From positions 1 to 32,240 of the forward strand of contig JADLHW010000121.1 in NCBI GenBank assembly GCA_020848615.1: DNA of 32,240 nt, read 5' to 3'. Position numbers and translations under genes: made by a program. The notes below the pieces were generated by a model that did not search any database, was not told the DNA's origin, and saw nothing but the letters and a program-made list of their open reading frames with translations. This document shows positions 17,689-24,010 of this stretch, piece by piece. Every line of letters starts with the position of its first letter. Within the stretch, counting starts at the first letter, position 1. The DNA is from Thermoleophilia bacterium. Its GTDB lineage: Bacteria; Actinomycetota; Thermoleophilia; Miltoncostaeales; Miltoncostaeaceae.

Positions 17689-17694
17689 TACCAT
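17689..17694 (+). promoter_or_regulatory. -10-like box TACCAT before ubiX
   Basis: TACCAT ends 8 nt before GTG 17703. It is nearly the same string and spacing as at the minus-strand membrane-protein gene (27176-27171, then GTG 27163), which supports a leaderless-type promoter. It follows the qcr terminator, so ubiX starts a new transcript. Confidence 0.5.
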
Positions 17695-17702
17695 TGCCCG
17701 TT

Positions 17703-18365
17703 GTGAAGCGGATCTTCCTGGGAGTGACCGGCGCATCCGGCGCCCCGTACGCGGCCGGCGCCCTGCGCGCCCTCACCGCGGCCGGGTGCGAGGTGGGCCT
17801 GTGCGTGAGCCGCTCCGGGGCGCACGTGATCAGCCACGAGATCCTGCGCGCCGGCCGGGAGGCGCCGCGCGACCCGGACGCCGTGGTGCGGGAGTTCGTG
17901 GCCCGCTCCACCGAGCATCCCCGGCGGGTGACGGTGCTGGGGCCGCGGGACCTCACCGCCCCGTTCGCATCGGGCTCGTCCCTGGCGCCGGCGGCGCTCA
18001 TCTGCCCGTGCTCGGGCAGCACGCTCGCCGCGATCGCCCACGGCACGGCGCAGAACCTCATCCACCGCTGCGCCGACGTGATGCTCAAGGAACGGCGCAC
18101 CCTGGTGCTGATGACCCGCGAGACGCCGCTGTCGATCATCCACATCGAGAACATGGCGGCCGTGACACGCGCGGGGGCGATCGTGATGCCGGCCATGCCG
18201 GGCTGGTACAACCACCCGGAGCGGGTGGAGGACCTCGTGGACTTCATGGTCGGCAAGGCCCTCGACCACCTCGGCGTCCCGAACCACCTGCTGGCCAGGT
18301 GGGGCGACGACCCGGAGGTGCGCGTGCCCGACGTCCCGCCCGCCGACCTGGAGCGACCCTCATGA
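17703..18365 (+). CDS. ubiX: Flavin prenyltransferase UbiX
   Basis: Attaches a dimethylallyl group to FMN to make prenyl-FMN, the cofactor for UbiD enzymes such as the one at 11769. 220 aa with the family motifs: GVTGASGAPYA at the FMN-binding start, SSLAPAALICPCSGSTLAAIA (in part, CPCSGSTLAAIA), RRTLVLMTRETPLS with the conserved Arg/Glu, and IHIENM. In the futalosine cluster of Streptomyces a UbiX homologue is the matching partner (MqnM). The start is set at GTG 17703; TTG 17694 is possible but overlaps the -10-like box. The stop overlaps the menG ATG (ATGA). Confidence 0.93.
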   Translation: MKRIFLGVTGASGAPYAAGALRALTAAGCEVGLCVSRSGAHVISHEILRAGREAPRDPDAVVREFVARSTEHPRRVTVLGPRDLTAPFASGSSLAPAALICPCSGSTLAAIAHGTAQNLIHRCADVMLKERRTLVLMTRETPLSIIHIENMAAVTRAGAIVMPAMPGWYNHPERVEDLVDFMVGKALDHLGVPNHLLARWGDDPEVRVPDVPPADLERPS

Positions 18366-19093
18366 GCGCGACGGCCGACCCCCGCAGCGGACGGCTGCCG
18401 GCCGGCGAGGTGCGGGCGATGTTCGACCGCATCGCCCCCCGCTACGACCTGCTGAACCGGGTGATGACCGCGGGCCTCGACGGCCGGTGGCGCGAGGCCG
18501 CCGCGGCCGCCGCCGACGTCGCCGCGGGCGGGTCCGCCGTCGACGTGTGCACCGGCACCGGCGACCTGGCGCTCGCCCTCGCCCGCCGGGTCACGCCCAC
18601 CGGCCGCGTCATGGGCGTGGACTTCGCCGAGAACATGCTGGAGATCGGCCGGGCGAAGGCCGCGGAGCGCGGCGAGCGCGTCGAGTTCGTGGCCGGCGAC
18701 GCCCTGGCGCTGCCCGCGGAGGACGACGCCTACGACGCCGCCACCGTGGCGTTCGGCATCCGCAACGTGTCCGACCTGGACGGCGCCCTCGCCGAGATGG
18801 CCAGGGTGGTGCGCCCGGGCGGCAGGGTCGTGATCCTCGAGATCACCACCCCCCGGCGGCTGCGCCGCTTCTACCACGCGTGGTTCGACCGGGTCGTGCC
18901 CCTGCTGGGGCGGGTGCTGGGCCGCGACGGCGACGCCTACGGCTACCTGCCCGCGTCGGTGCGGCGGTTCCCCGAGCCGCCGGAGCTCGCGCGCCGCATG
19001 CACGCAGTGGGGCTGGAGGACATCCGCTGGCGGCCGTTCGCCGCCGGCATCGTCGCGCTGCACCACGGCCGGGTGCCGTCATCGCCGCGGTGA
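18362..19093 (+). CDS. menG: Demethylmenaquinone methyltransferase
   Basis: Last step of menaquinone synthesis: SAM-dependent C-methylation of demethylmenaquinone. 243 aa with the UbiE/MenG signatures MFDRIAPRYDLLNRVMTAGLD near the N-terminus (RYDLLNRVMTAGLD), SAM-binding motif I VDVCTGTGDLALALA, GVDFAENMLEIGR, FGIRNVSDLDGALAEMARVV and GGRVVILEITTP. The context (ubiX, polyprenyl synthase, mqnA, mqnC; no ubiquinone genes) supports menaquinone over ubiquinone. It overlaps ubiX before it and the polyprenyl synthase (GTGA) after it, so the series is translationally coupled. Confidence 0.93.
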   Translation: MSATADPRSGRLPAGEVRAMFDRIAPRYDLLNRVMTAGLDGRWREAAAAAADVAAGGSAVDVCTGTGDLALALARRVTPTGRVMGVDFAENMLEIGRAKAAERGERVEFVAGDALALPAEDDAYDAATVAFGIRNVSDLDGALAEMARVVRPGGRVVILEITTPRRLRRFYHAWFDRVVPLLGRVLGRDGDAYGYLPASVRRFPEPPELARRMHAVGLEDIRWRPFAAGIVALHHGRVPSSPR

Positions 19094-20049
19094 CCCCCGC
19101 AGCCGCCGCGCTCGCCGGCGCGGCCGCCGATGCCCTGGCCGCGTGCGAGGCGCACCTGCGCGCCGTGGTGGGCGGCGGGATGCCGCAGGTCGCGGCGCCG
19201 GGCGCCGACACCCTGGACGCGGGCGGCAAGCGCCTGCGGCCGCTCCTGGTGCTGTGCTGCGCGGGCCGCGTGGCGGATCCCACGCAGGAGCTCATCCGTG
19301 CCGCGTCGGCCGTCGAGCTGGTGCACATGGCCACCCTGGTGCACGACGACCTGCTGGACGGCGCCACGATGCGCCGCGGCCGGCGCACCGTCGCCAGCGC
19401 CCAGGGCGCGGACGCCGCGATCCAGGTGGGCGACTACCTGTTCGCCCGGGCGTTCGAGGACCTGGCCGCCGCCGGGGAGCCGGAGGCCGTGCGGGTGCTG
19501 GCGTCGTCCGCGCTGGACCTGTCCCTGGGCGAGCTCGCCCAGGGCCGGGCCGCGTACGACCTGGCGCTCACCGAGCGGGCGTATGCCGACCGGGTGCGCC
19601 GCAAGACGGCCTCCCTGTTCGCCGCCGCCTGCCGGCTGGGGGCCCTGGTGGGCGGCATCCCGGCGTCGGCGCACGACGGCCTGGCCAGGTTCGGCGACGA
19701 GGTGGGCATGGCGTTCCAGATCTTCGACGACATCCTCGACCTCACCGGCGACCCGGCCGCGACGGGCAAGCGCCGCGGCGCCGACCTGCGCGACGGCACC
19801 GTGACCCTGCCGGTCATCCTCGCCCTGCGCGGTGAGCCGGAGCTCGCCGACGCCATCCGCGCGGCCGACGACGAGGAGGCCATCGACGCCCTGTGCGACC
19901 GGCTGGCGGCCAACACCGGCTGCGCGGCCGCCCGGCAGCGCGCCCTCGGCCACGTCGGCCGTGCCCGGGAGGCGGTGGAGGGACTGGAGGGACCCGACGT
20001 GCCCGCATTGCTCGCGATCGCCGACGGAGTGGTGGACCGTTACTCGTGA
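19090..20049 (+). CDS. Polyprenyl diphosphate synthase (menaquinone side chain)
   Basis: Builds the all-trans polyprenyl diphosphate tail by adding isopentenyl units. 319 aa. Family motifs: GGKRLRPLLVL (45-55), first Asp-rich motif LVHDDLLD (DDLLD 86-90), GDYLFARAFE (114-123), KTASLF, and second Asp-rich motif QIFDDILDLTG (213-217). It is comparable to HepT and other long-chain synthases; chain length cannot be read from the sequence. GTG 19090 overlaps the menG stop. The next gene's GTG overlaps its stop. A shortened relative may be encoded at 11266-11772. Confidence 0.92.
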   Translation: MTPAAAALAGAAADALAACEAHLRAVVGGGMPQVAAPGADTLDAGGKRLRPLLVLCCAGRVADPTQELIRAASAVELVHMATLVHDDLLDGATMRRGRRTVASAQGADAAIQVGDYLFARAFEDLAAAGEPEAVRVLASSALDLSLGELAQGRAAYDLALTERAYADRVRRKTASLFAAACRLGALVGGIPASAHDGLARFGDEVGMAFQIFDDILDLTGDPAATGKRRGADLRDGTVTLPVILALRGEPELADAIRAADDEEAIDALCDRLAANTGCAAARQRALGHVGRAREAVEGLEGPDVPALLAIADGVVDRYS

Positions 20050-20600
20050 CCATGGACCGTGACCAGCTCATCGCCCTCATCGCCTCGGCGGACCCCATCG
20101 CCGCGGCCCGCGCCGCCGGCGTCGCCCCGGGCGGCACCGTGACGTTCGCCCACGGACCCGACCCGTCGCAGTGGCTCGACGACGGCGACGCCGAGGGCCC
20201 GGTGGAGTCCCACCGTGCCGCGCACGCCGAGGGCCGGCCCAGCGTGGCGGCCGTCGCCTACGGCGCGGGGTCGGGCCCGGAGACCGTGGCCGACCGACTG
20301 CTGTCCCTCGCGGCCCTGGCCGGCGAGACCGGCATGCTGCGCGCGGTGGTGCCGGTGCCCGGCGAGGGCACCAGCGCCCGCCCGGGATCGTGGGGCGTGG
20401 AGGACCTGGTGGTGATCGGCGCGGCCCGTGCCGTCCTGCCCGGGAGCGTGGCCGTGCGCCCCTGCTGGCCGCGCCTCGGCGCGCCCGGCGCGCAGGTGGC
20501 CGCCGCGTTCGGCGCGACGGACTGGCAGATCCCCGACGGCGAGGACGAGGACCCGGCGCGACTCGCCGGGGCCGTGGGCCGCACGGCGGTGCCGCGATGA
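20046..20600 (+). CDS. MqnC/MqnE-like protein lacking the radical-SAM core
   Basis: 184 aa. By eye it aligns in two blocks to the window's own MqnC (21437-22537). Residues 8-36 match MqnC 28-62 (LIALIASADPIAAARAAG against LALLRSGDLVGVGEAARA). Residues 57-165 match 207-317 (RAAHAEGRPSVAAVAYG against RAAHLQGLSTSATMMYG; DRLLSLAALAGETG against EHLRRLRELQDEAPG; RPCWPRLGAPGAQVAAAFGA against QSSWVTQGLRIGQMALEFGC). The middle 140 or so residues, including the CxxxCxxC cluster motif, are missing, and the protein has only one Cys (140). It cannot be a radical-SAM enzyme; a pseudoenzyme or partner role is inferred. GTG 20046 overlaps the synthase stop (ATG 20052 also possible), and its stop overlaps mqnA. 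Confidence 0.8.
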   Translation: MTMDRDQLIALIASADPIAAARAAGVAPGGTVTFAHGPDPSQWLDDGDAEGPVESHRAAHAEGRPSVAAVAYGAGSGPETVADRLLSLAALAGETGMLRAVVPVPGEGTSARPGSWGVEDLVVIGAARAVLPGSVAVRPCWPRLGAPGAQVAAAFGATDWQIPDGEDEDPARLAGAVGRTAVPR

Positions 20601-21406
20601 CCGGCAGCGCCGCCCTGCGCGTCGGCCGCATCGCCGCCCTGAACATGTACCCGCTCTACCACCACCTGGAGGCGGTGGGCGGCCCGGAGTTCGCGTTCAC
20701 CGACGGCGTGCCCACCACGCTGAACCGCGCGGTGCTGGACGGCGCCCTGGACGTCTCGGCGATGTCGTCCATCGAGTTCGCCCGCAACGCGGCGAACCTG
20801 CGGCTGCTGCCGGTGGCGTCGGTGACGGCGTCCGGCGCGGTCGACTCCATCGAGCTGTTCTCCCGGGTGCCGTTCGAGGAGGTGCGCAGCGTGGCGGTGA
20901 CGCCGCACAGCGCGACCAGCGTCGCCCTGCTGCGCGTGCTGCTGGGCCCCGGGCCGGTGTTCGGGCCCCTGGACGGGCCGCCGGCCGAGGCGCTCACCGA
21001 GCGCGACGCCGTGCTGCTCATCGGCGACGAGGCCCTCGCCGGGTTCCGCGCGCCGTTCGCGCCCGTCCGCACCGACCTGGGCGAACGGTGGCGCGCCCTC
21101 ACCGGGCTGCCCATGGTGTTCGCCGTGTGGGCCGCCCGGGCGGACCTGCCGGAGCGGCTGGAACCGGCGTTGGAGCGCCTGATGGCGCTGCTCACCGAGG
21201 CGCGGCTGCGCTACGAGGCCGACCCGGACCGCGTGGTCGCCGCGGCCGCCGAGCGCTTCCCGTTCCCCGCGGAGTTCATCGCGGCCTACTTCACGAGGCT
21301 GAGATACGGTTTCGGGACGGCCGAGCGGCGCGGCCTGGAGCGGTTCCTCGAGCTGGCCCGCGAGGCGGGCGAGCTGCGGGAGCTGCCGGCCCTCGCCGCC
21401 GCCTGA
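20597..21406 (+). CDS. mqnA: Chorismate dehydratase (futalosine pathway)
   Basis: Converts chorismate to 3-enolpyruvylbenzoate, the entry step of futalosine menaquinone synthesis. 269 aa with a periplasmic-binding-protein-like fold. Motifs: IAALNMYPLYHHL, FTDGVPTTLNRAVLDGALDVSAMSSIEFARN (in part, SAMSSIEFARN), VAVTPHSATSVALLRVLL, DAVLLIGDEAL, GLPMVFAVWAAR and YFTRLRYGFG, the last typical of MqnA. ATG 20597 overlaps the preceding stop (ATGA). mqnC follows after 30 nt. The partner MqnE is not in the window. Confidence 0.93.
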   Translation: MTGSAALRVGRIAALNMYPLYHHLEAVGGPEFAFTDGVPTTLNRAVLDGALDVSAMSSIEFARNAANLRLLPVASVTASGAVDSIELFSRVPFEEVRSVAVTPHSATSVALLRVLLGPGPVFGPLDGPPAEALTERDAVLLIGDEALAGFRAPFAPVRTDLGERWRALTGLPMVFAVWAARADLPERLEPALERLMALLTEARLRYEADPDRVVAAAAERFPFPAEFIAAYFTRLRYGFGTAERRGLERFLELAREAGELRELPALAAA

Positions 21407-21436: not shown

Positions 21437-22537
21437 ATGAGCACGCTCGCACCCGCCCCGGCCCACACGGAGATCCTCGAGCGCGCCCGCTCCGGCGAGC
21501 GCATCGGCGAGCAGGACGCGCTGGCGCTGCTGCGCAGCGGCGACCTGGTGGGCGTGGGTGAGGCGGCCCGGGCCGTCCGGGAGGCCCGCACGAACCCGGA
21601 CGAGGTCACGTTCATCATCGACCGGAACGTGAACTACACGAACTTCTGCGTCACGGACTGCGACTTCTGCGCCTTCTACCGGCTGCCCCGCGACCCGGAG
21701 GGCTACGTCCTCCCGAAGTCCGTGATCTTCCGGAAGATCGAGGAGACCCTCGCCCTCGGCGGGACGGCGCTGCTGCTGCAGGGCGGGCATCACCCCGGCC
21801 TGCGGATCGACTACTACGAGGACCTGTTCCGCGCCATCAAGGCGCGCTACCCCATCCATCTCCACGCCCTGTCGCCGTCGGAGGTGCTGCACATCGCGAA
21901 GTTCTCCAAGCTCACCCTGGAGGACACCATCGCCCGCCTGCGGGCCGCGGGCCTGGACTCCATCCCCGGCGGCGGCGCGGAGATCCTGGTGGACCGGGTG
22001 CGGGCGATCATCGCCCCGAAGAAGACCACCAGCGACGAGTGGCTCGGCGTGATGCGGGCCGCGCACCTGCAGGGCCTGTCGACGTCGGCGACCATGATGT
22101 ACGGCACGGTCGACACCCTCGAGGACCGGGTGGAGCACCTGCGCCGCCTGCGTGAGCTGCAGGACGAGGCCCCCGGCTTCCGGGCGTTCGTGTGCTGGAG
22201 CTACCAGTCCGGCGGCGGGTCGCGGCGCGGCGACGACCACGCCCACACCACCGCGGCGGACTACCTGATGACCCTGGCCGTGAGCCGCCTGTACCTCGAC
22301 AACTTCGACCACTTCCAGTCGTCGTGGGTCACGCAGGGGCTGCGCATCGGGCAGATGGCGCTGGAGTTCGGCTGCGACGACATGGGCTCGATCATGATCG
22401 AGGAGAACGTCGTGCGGGCCGCGGGCACCGCCTTCGCGCTCGACACCGCGCGCATGGTCGCCGCCATCGAGGCCACCGGCCGCCGCGCCGTGCAGCGCGA
22501 CACGGCGTACCGGGTGGTCAGGCGCTTCTCGGCGTAG
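21437..22537 (+). CDS. mqnC: Dehypoxanthine futalosine cyclase (radical SAM)
   Basis: Radical-SAM enzyme that turns dehypoxanthine futalosine into cyclic dehypoxanthine futalosine. 366 aa. The cluster motif is CVTDCDFC (Cys71, 75, 78) in VNYTNFCVTDCDFCAFYR. Other MqnC features are LLLQGGHHPGL, GLDSIPGGGAEIL, STSATMMYG and the C-terminal DDMGSIMIEENVV with GCDDMGS. It is closer to MqnC than to MqnE, which has a different QGGxHP context and C-terminus. A purine-rich GAGGAAGGA lies about 13 nt before ATG 21437, slightly far for a ribosome-binding site. It ends the plus-strand menaquinone run, with a shared hairpin just after it. Confidence 0.94.
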   Translation: MSTLAPAPAHTEILERARSGERIGEQDALALLRSGDLVGVGEAARAVREARTNPDEVTFIIDRNVNYTNFCVTDCDFCAFYRLPRDPEGYVLPKSVIFRKIEETLALGGTALLLQGGHHPGLRIDYYEDLFRAIKARYPIHLHALSPSEVLHIAKFSKLTLEDTIARLRAAGLDSIPGGGAEILVDRVRAIIAPKKTTSDEWLGVMRAAHLQGLSTSATMMYGTVDTLEDRVEHLRRLRELQDEAPGFRAFVCWSYQSGGGSRRGDDHAHTTAADYLMTLAVSRLYLDNFDHFQSSWVTQGLRIGQMALEFGCDDMGSIMIEENVVRAAGTAFALDTARMVAAIEATGRRAVQRDTAYRVVRRFSA

Positions 22538-22538
22538 G

Positions 22539-22571
22539 CACGTTCCGCCGGTCTACGCCCGGCGGAACGTG
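22539..22571. terminator. Bidirectional hairpin between convergent genes
   Basis: Perfect 13 bp arms CACGTTCCGCCGG (22539-22551) and CCGGCGGAACGTG (22559-22571) with a 7 nt loop. It starts 2 nt after the mqnC stop, and its right arm lies in the last codons of the minus-strand secreted-protein gene, whose stop is in the loop. It could terminate transcripts from both sides. Confidence 0.75.
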
Positions 22572-24010
22572 ATGGTCTGGGCGGCGGCGTCGCCGTCCGC
22601 GGTGCGCGCCCGGACCGCGACGTTCAGGTCCTCGCCGGAGTCCCAGGAGGCCCCTCCCACCGACGTGGCGCACGCCGTGAGGTTCACGGTGAACGTGATG
22701 GTGTTGCCGGTGTCCGGCACGGCGTCCCTCGCAAGGTCCAGCAGGCGGTCGCCATCCGCCGTGAGGCCGGCGTCGGCGGTGCCGGGGGTCGCGCCGGGGC
22801 ACGGGCCGTTCGGCACGTCCACCGAGTAGCCGAGGCCGCCGATGTCCACCCAGTCGCCCACCTCGCCGGCCGCCGAGATCGCGGCGCGCTGCGGGCGCCA
22901 CAGTGTGAACGTCACGTTCACGTCGCCGGTCGCCGGCACGGTGATGGGCGTGCCGGCGGTGCCCGGGTCGGACGGCGCCACCGGGTAGGCCACGCCGGCC
23001 GTCGTGCCGCCGTTCACCTGGAAGGACGTGATCGCCGGGGTGGTGGCGAACTGGAGGTTCAGGACCCCGGGGACGGCGGTCTCCACGCCGCCGGCGCCGA
23101 TGCGCCAGATGAACGCGTCGCCGGAGCCGATCTGCGTGGACGTGGCGTTCGGCTTCAGCCGGAGGTCGCCGGAGGGCCCGCGGGTGACGGTGCCGAAGCC
23201 GTCACCGTCGGTGTCGACGGTGCCGGGGAACACGCCGCCGCCCACCGCGAGGGTGCCGGTCCCGCCGCGGCTGCAGTAGCCCAGCCTGCCGCAGTCCAGC
23301 TCCACCTCGTCGCCCGCCGGCACGGCGACCGCGAGGATCGACGCGCCGGAGAGCGCCGCGTCGATCTCGGCGCGCTCGACGCCGGCGTTGGCGTTCAGGG
23401 ACCCCTCCAGCGGCAGCTCGAGGGTGCTGAGGACCCGCGGCCCGGTGCCCGCCGTGGACCCGGTGCCGGGGGTCCGGTCGAGGCCGTCGAGGATGCGGTC
23501 GCCGTCGTCGTCGATGTCGTAGGCGCCGGGCACGCCGTCGCGGTCGAGGTCACGGCCGGGCCCGGAGGGCCCCTTCACGGCGGACTTCACCAGCCCCAGG
23601 GACCGCGCGCCCAGCGGCACGCCCTTCCTCGCGGCGGCGGTGCGGGACCGGTCGGTCGACACCACCGGCGGGGTGGCGACCCACGCGCCCCCCACCCTGC
23701 GGATCACCCCGAGCCTCGCCCCGGCGCGCACGCCCATCACGGTGGTGCCCTTCGGCCCCTTGCCCACCACGACCGGGCCGGCGTACCGGCCCTTCGGGCC
23801 GATGAGGTGCAGGGTGAACGTCCTGGCGGGCGGCACGAGGGTGACCCGGCCCCTGACGGTCGCCGCCGCGGCCACCGCGCCCGTGTACGACAGCGCGACC
23901 AGGCGGTGCCCCGAGGGCACGGTGCCCGTGACCGGGGCGGGTACCGCGCCCGCGGTCGCCGTCGCCACCAGGGCGCAGCCCAGGGCCGCCCCCGCAAAGA
24001 CCTTCCGCAT
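22553..24010 (-). CDS. Secreted protein with Ca-binding-like Asp repeat (function unknown)
   Basis: 485 aa, no family recognised. It has an N-terminal signal peptide (MRKVFAGAALGCALVATATA, cleavage near AGAVPA). Residues 28-130 are Gly/Val/Thr-rich beta-like. Residues 150-180 carry DLDRDGVPGAYDIDDDGDR, resembling thrombospondin type 3 / dockerin-like calcium loops, with a second DTDGDGFG loop near residue 268. The rest is Thr/Gly/Val-rich, predicted beta, with few Cys. An exported calcium-stabilised surface or matrix protein is a reasonable inference. A GAGGGAG lies 7-8 nt before ATG 24010. It is downstream of the rhodanese gene on the same strand, 75 nt apart. Confidence 0.7.
   Translation of the reverse strand: MRKVFAGAALGCALVATATAGAVPAPVTGTVPSGHRLVALSYTGAVAAAATVRGRVTLVPPARTFTLHLIGPKGRYAGPVVVGKGPKGTTVMGVRAGARLGVIRRVGGAWVATPPVVSTDRSRTAAARKGVPLGARSLGLVKSAVKGPSGPGRDLDRDGVPGAYDIDDDGDRILDGLDRTPGTGSTAGTGPRVLSTLELPLEGSLNANAGVERAEIDAALSGASILAVAVPAGDEVELDCGRLGYCSRGGTGTLAVGGGVFPGTVDTDGDGFGTVTRGPSGDLRLKPNATSTQIGSGDAFIWRIGAGGVETAVPGVLNLQFATTPAITSFQVNGGTTAGVAYPVAPSDPGTAGTPITVPATGDVNVTFTLWRPQRAAISAAGEVGDWVDIGGLGYSVDVPNGPCPGATPGTADAGLTADGDRLLDLARDAVPDTGNTITFTVNLTACATSVGGASWDSGEDLNVAVRARTADGDAAAQTITFRRA

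Follow-up and report, generated by a model that had tools for sequence, protein, structure and literature searches.

The menaquinone operon of the Miltoncostaeaceae carries, immediately before mqnA, a gene for a 184-aa protein that shares ancestry with the C-terminal half of radical-SAM proteins of the CofH/MqnE/MqnC family and is a remodelled pseudoenzyme, neither a decaying gene nor a catalytic subunit. We consider it very probable that this half gene is a descendant of the operon's own mqnE, which was displaced by a second MqnE and then cut down. The gene lies in a stretch of 32,240 nucleotides (the window), one part of a 3.6-Mb source genome (G000), with the gene order ubiX–menG–hepT–half gene–mqnA–mqnC:

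17694..18365, + strand: ubiX, flavin prenyltransferase (TIGR00421, 8e-53)
18362..19093, + strand: menG/ubiE methyltransferase (TIGR01934, 3e-70)
19090..20049, + strand: hepT-like polyprenyl diphosphate synthase, directly upstream of the half gene (PF00348, 4e-64)
20046..20600, + strand: half-MqnE pseudoenzyme gene, 184 aa (ORF read directly; CofH/MqnE profile matches; 33 orthologues aligned; AF2 pLDDT 94.6)
20046..20049, + strand: 4-base overlap of the half gene with hepT, GTGA (sequence; similar coupling in orthologues)
20597..20600, + strand: 4-base overlap of the half gene with mqnA, ATGA (sequence)
20597..21406, + strand: mqnA-type chorismate dehydratase (PF02621, 2.4e-61)
21437..22537, + strand: mqnC, full-length radical SAM enzyme (TIGR03699, 3.2e-139, above the cut-off)

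The ORF starts with GTG at 20046 and ends with the stop codon TGA at 20598–20600. An earlier note on this DNA, made from the sequence alone, had described it as overlapped by genes at both ends, and this is what we observed: GTGA is shared with hepT and ATGA with mqnA, the latter overlap taking the form A/GTGA at the end of the half gene in all 33 aligned orthologues. Stop/start overlaps of four bases also link ubiX, menG, hepT, the half gene and mqnA in series (window positions 17694–20600). Downstream, on the opposite strand (22553–24010), lies a gene for a protein of 485 aa whose N terminus is signal-like; it contains a DLDRDGVPGAYDIDDDGD segment and has no Pfam match. Outside the window, G000 encodes a second PF02621 protein (contig C18), probably of the mqnD type, a full-length MqnE-like radical SAM protein (C63) and CofH (C140).

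Residues 53–161 of the half protein matched the profiles TIGR00423 (E = 1.6e-7), TIGR03551 for CofH (3.4e-5), TIGR03700 for MqnE (3.7e-5) and TIGR03699 for MqnC (0.003), the radical-SAM families against which the earlier note had proposed a profile search. All NCBIfam matches fell far below the curated cut-offs; with TIGR03700 the score was 22.8 bits against a cut-off of 434.55 bits, so that by score the protein is not a member of MqnE. Membership in the wider CofH-like family is clear, with TIGR00423 matched by 22 of the 33 orthologues (best E-value 1.6e-13). A Pfam search of the half protein returned no match, and with every NCBIfam score also this far short of its cut-off, the gene would be overlooked or misnamed in annotation. 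When a profile of the 33 orthologues was used, a single PDB sequence was matched, MqnE of Pedobacter heparinus (6xi9/6xig, E = 1e-8). Together with the profile matches, this identifies the resemblance first seen by eye as real homology. Comparison of the same half-protein profile by hhalign gave a score of 101 with canonical MqnE (E = 1.5e-14), 81 with the family's own C63-type MqnE and 68 with MqnC. The likeness to MqnC noticed earlier thus stands as C-terminal homology to the family, but the closest relative is MqnE and not MqnC.

Alignment bore out the earlier description of a product without the central part, some 140 residues with the CxxxCxxC site among them. The gap extends from just after the first strand to just before MRAAH, and none of the 33 orthologues has the CxxxCxxC motif or the part of the barrel that binds SAM. 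A second missing stretch, near the C terminus, corresponds to GTVVEEKIxHAAG of MqnE. The parts that remain are as follows:

20058..20114, + strand: N-terminal helices, residues 5–23, collinear with the N-terminal helices of MqnE/MqnC (alignment, DSSP)
20136..20153, + strand: first barrel strand, residues 31–36 (alignment, DSSP)
20214..20528, + strand: homologous core, residues 57–161, corresponding to the final strands and helices in the barrel of MqnE (profiles, alignment, hhalign, Foldseek)
20379..20405, + strand: new invariant motif RPGSWGxED, residues 112–120, in the loop after strand 98–105

The N-terminal flank gives a weak match on its own, yet at the collinear place: hhalign positions the N-terminal helices at MqnE 23–48 (weakly) and at MqnC 20–60. 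In MqnE, the CxxxCxxC stretch comes next after the first strand, and it is this stretch that is deleted in the half protein.

AlphaFold2, run with 43 sequences, predicted a confident fold over all 184 residues (mean pLDDT 94.6, pTM 0.91), with strands at 31–36, 66–73, 98–105, 136–137, 159–162 and 180–183 and helices between them according to DSSP. Structure prediction had been suggested as a check for the C-terminal barrel part of the family, and a Foldseek search of the PDB with the model found that fold: four matches had E-values below 0.001, all of them MqnE chains (E = 2.6e-6, TM-score 0.62 by query length). A fold search against viral structures found nothing. Judging from the topology of the model, the first strand and the last strands that are retained would be contiguous in the closed barrel.

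The retained part no longer carries the residues that are fixed in MqnE, defined here as those present in all MqnE compared, the C63 type included. In half-protein numbering, the lost residues are His at 74, Glu at 76, His at 84, Arg at 89, Gln at 92, Asp at 93, Phe at 98, Phe at 106 and Pro at 108. Half of the 28 most conserved positions (14) depart from the MqnE consensus, and the newly conserved residues include R84, R112, S115, W116, P132, R138, A157, W160 and P163. With the fixed residues lost and a new set conserved, the half protein is incapable of the MqnE reaction and is under new constraints. Barrel enzymes bind their ligands and keep their active sites on the face formed by the C-terminal ends of the strands. 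In the half protein, conserved positions were enriched in the zones that comprise these strand ends and the loops after them (15/67 versus 12/117, p = 0.02), a weak enrichment for zones drawn by hand from the DSSP line.

The half gene is under purifying selection, weaker than that on the mqnA and mqnC enzymes. Pairwise dN/dS values (Nei–Gojobori) ranged from 0.11 to 0.30, compared with 0.07–0.26 for mqnA and 0.03–0.15 for mqnC in the same pairs. Compared with the nearest relative of the window, the half gene shows 109 substitutions, distributed as 21, 21 and 67 over the three codon positions, and no indel. Twenty residues are invariant across the 33 orthologues, and no internal stop was found in the half-gene matches of 38 genomes. 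The protein thus combines the loss of catalytic residues with purifying selection, as expected of a pseudoenzyme. A random or frameshifted ORF is ruled out by the codon-position pattern and the conservation.

The half gene was found in 38 of 42 Miltoncostaeaceae genomes, covering 11 of 12 genera, and its scores were sharply separated from those of all other matches. Its slot before mqnA, which the earlier note had proposed to survey in related genomes, is conserved family-wide. Among about 207 other Thermoleophilia searched, the half gene was absent and all matches were full-length, save one cut by a contig end; in the phylum sample outside Thermoleophilia, no genome matched the half-gene search at 1e-18. 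The impression that the gene is maintained rather than decaying is therefore upheld by its dN/dS and its presence in 38 of 42 genomes, and the two outcomes named beforehand as counting against it, an unrelated fold and an occurrence restricted to this genome with relaxed selection, were looked for and did not occur.

Two of the four genomes without the half gene constitute the whole of one genus, g7 (G007 and G016, 90 and 94% complete). In both (L096, L097), hepT directly overlaps mqnA, and the rest of the operon and MqnE are kept. As g7 is nested within the family in the MqnA + MqnC tree, this is a clean loss, and since MqnA, MqnC and MqnE remain there, the half gene is dispensable in this genus and the three enzymes do not strictly need its product. 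The remaining two genomes are incomplete (82 and 69%), and one of them, G032, also lacked the operon mqnC in our search. Another genus, g9, has undergone a further deletion of about 29 aa, comprising the helix HRAAHxxG, which leaves a protein of 155 aa (L023–L030, L046, L047, L049, L050, L098 and L099). This shorter form is predicted with a pLDDT of 95.0 and a pTM of 0.90, and its nearest fold is again MqnE.

The origin of the half gene is indicated by its position. In other Thermoleophilia families a full-length mqnE sits between hepT and mqnA, in the order ubiX–menG–hepT–mqnE–mqnA–mqnC; the six loci read for this order (L109, L110, L112, L113, L101 and L115) showed (ubiX–)menG–hepT–mqnE–mqnA(–mqnC), and one operon MqnE of these families that was tested scored 490.8 bits, above the TIGR03700 cut-off (434.55 bits). 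In the Miltoncostaeaceae, the half gene occupies exactly this mqnE slot. The only full-length MqnE of the family is encoded outside the mqn operon (G000:C63:17093–18196; L081:1894–2997) and is divergent, with at most 46% identity to other MqnE of the phylum sample and 410.6 bits against the same cut-off. This MqnE seems to have replaced the operon copy and may have been acquired by transfer; its source was not found. Synteny and profile scores favour a shrunken MqnE over a relative of MqnC, and descent from mqnE rests on these two lines, the tree leaving the ancestor undecided. The half proteins form one clade (SH-aLRT 100), whose stem is about 2.4 changes per site long, and with this stem and an alignment of 109 columns the placement of the clade in the CofH/MqnE/MqnC tree is not settled: AU tests gave p > 0.3 for grouping with MqnC, CofH or C63-type MqnE alike. 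An origin from a tandem duplicate of mqnC draws on that result (p = 0.49 for the MqnC grouping), on the proximity of mqnC, only two genes away, and on the N-terminal 36 residues, which fit the MqnC profile better than the MqnE profile. We nevertheless regard it as quite improbable, as the half gene sits in the exact mqnE slot, its core scores 101 with MqnE versus 68 with MqnC, and MqnC is set apart in the larger tree with a support of 100. Under descent from mqnE, a divergent MqnE encoded elsewhere in the genome of the Miltoncostaeaceae ancestor would have taken over aminofutalosine synthesis. The operon copy would then have lost the [4Fe-4S]- and SAM-binding part of the barrel and some of its C terminus, and would have persisted as a folded, non-catalytic half barrel with new invariant residues.

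Other explanations concern what the protein does now. The main rival is that it is a different enzyme, with two copies rebuilding a closed barrel or with a new non-radical active site formed in the half barrel and centred on the Arg, Trp and Asp/Glu residues that have become invariant. R112, W116, E119, D120, R138, W141 and W160 do lie largely at strand C-terminal ends, but many of the invariant residues are Gly, Pro or Trp with no obvious catalytic set, the fold search points to radical SAM barrels only, and the gene was cleanly lost in g7; we therefore judge a new enzyme unlikely. The shrinkage that continues in g9 and ends in complete loss in g7, along with a dN/dS above that of mqnA and mqnC, could instead be read as the decay of a remnant, or as a mere translated bridge coupling hepT to mqnA. 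Both variants are very improbable given 20 invariant residues in 33 orthologues, matches free of internal stops in 38 genomes, a dN/dS well below 1 and a confident prediction even for the shortest form (pLDDT 95); moreover, the direct overlap of hepT with mqnA in g7 makes a bridge unnecessary. The presence of only a half barrel might also suggest a split radical SAM enzyme, of which the half protein would be the C-terminal subunit and the cluster half the product of another locus, an idea hardly credible for a retained half from which the MqnE-fixed residues are gone. A TIGR00423 search of the whole of G000 found only MqnC, CofH and one MqnE, all full-length, and the split enzyme was rejected.

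Regarding function, the likeliest of the readings considered is that the half protein serves menaquinone synthesis as an accessory factor, with an intermediate of the pathway or another enzyme as its binding partner, a proposal for and against which we see about equal weight. The overall explanation that joins descent from mqnE to such a role is the best available and is likewise evenly poised. The half protein would be made in step with MqnA through the gene overlaps, and the old substrate face of the half barrel would bind an intermediate or MqnA, MqnC or MqnE, an interaction that would steady, channel or regulate the pathway without performing chemistry. A bolder and rather doubtful version sees the excised half barrel, without its cluster site and its ancestral substrate residues, as a regulator of the futalosine menaquinone pathway or a carrier of its intermediates, dedicated to that role throughout the family. 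In g7, changes at positions otherwise invariant in the family affect 5 of 59 in UbiX, 4 of 124 in MqnC and none in MqnA, HepT or MqnE, with 0–3 per protein in control clades. The MqnC changes, F70, D86, P87 and G89, cluster by its iron-sulfur motif. UbiX and the MqnC residues beside the cluster may hence be pointers to a partner, albeit a weak lead from sequence comparison; MqnA and MqnE are unsupported as obligate partners, since no otherwise invariant position is broken in either.

This one locus displays the ancestral, derived, further-trimmed and lost states of an enzyme gene that was apparently displaced. The half protein suggests a previously undescribed accessory factor of the futalosine pathway and offers, as a natural half barrel of 155–184 aa, a model for paring down (β/α)8 proteins. 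If it does act as a regulator or carrier, the accessory factors of radical SAM pathways would include a new class, that of half-barrel pseudoenzymes. A survey of quinone pathways across Bacteria, Actinomycetota included, covers futalosine genes without mentioning mqnE in its main text (PMC13386864). In the literature searched, largely without subscription papers, we found nothing on shortened MqnE paralogues or on the menaquinone genes of the Miltoncostaeaceae.

Among known systems, the closest is MqnE itself (aminofutalosine synthase, TIGR03700; 6xi9/6xig), which occupies the same operon slot in the sister families and whose last barrel part is homologous to the half protein in sequence and predicted fold. 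In contrast to MqnE, the half protein has neither the CxxxCxxC/SAM part nor the fixed residues and is missing a C-terminal stretch; it cannot serve as an aminofutalosine synthase. MqnC (cyclic dehypoxanthinyl futalosine synthase, TIGR03699), encoded two genes downstream, belongs to the same CofH-like family but keeps the full radical SAM apparatus and gives a lower profile score with the half protein than MqnE does. CofH_C (PF19288), the C-terminal region of CofH and MqnC, matches MqnC over part of the region that the half protein retains, whereas the half protein itself has no Pfam match. Pseudoenzymes are well known, and the half protein resembles them as an enzyme homologue retained after losing its catalytic machinery; unlike the usual cases, however, it has had a large part of a (β/α)8 barrel removed rather than a few catalytic residues. 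As far as we can tell, the present case, in which half the barrel of a radical SAM enzyme has been excised yet conserved within the enzyme's own operon, is a new variant of this theme.
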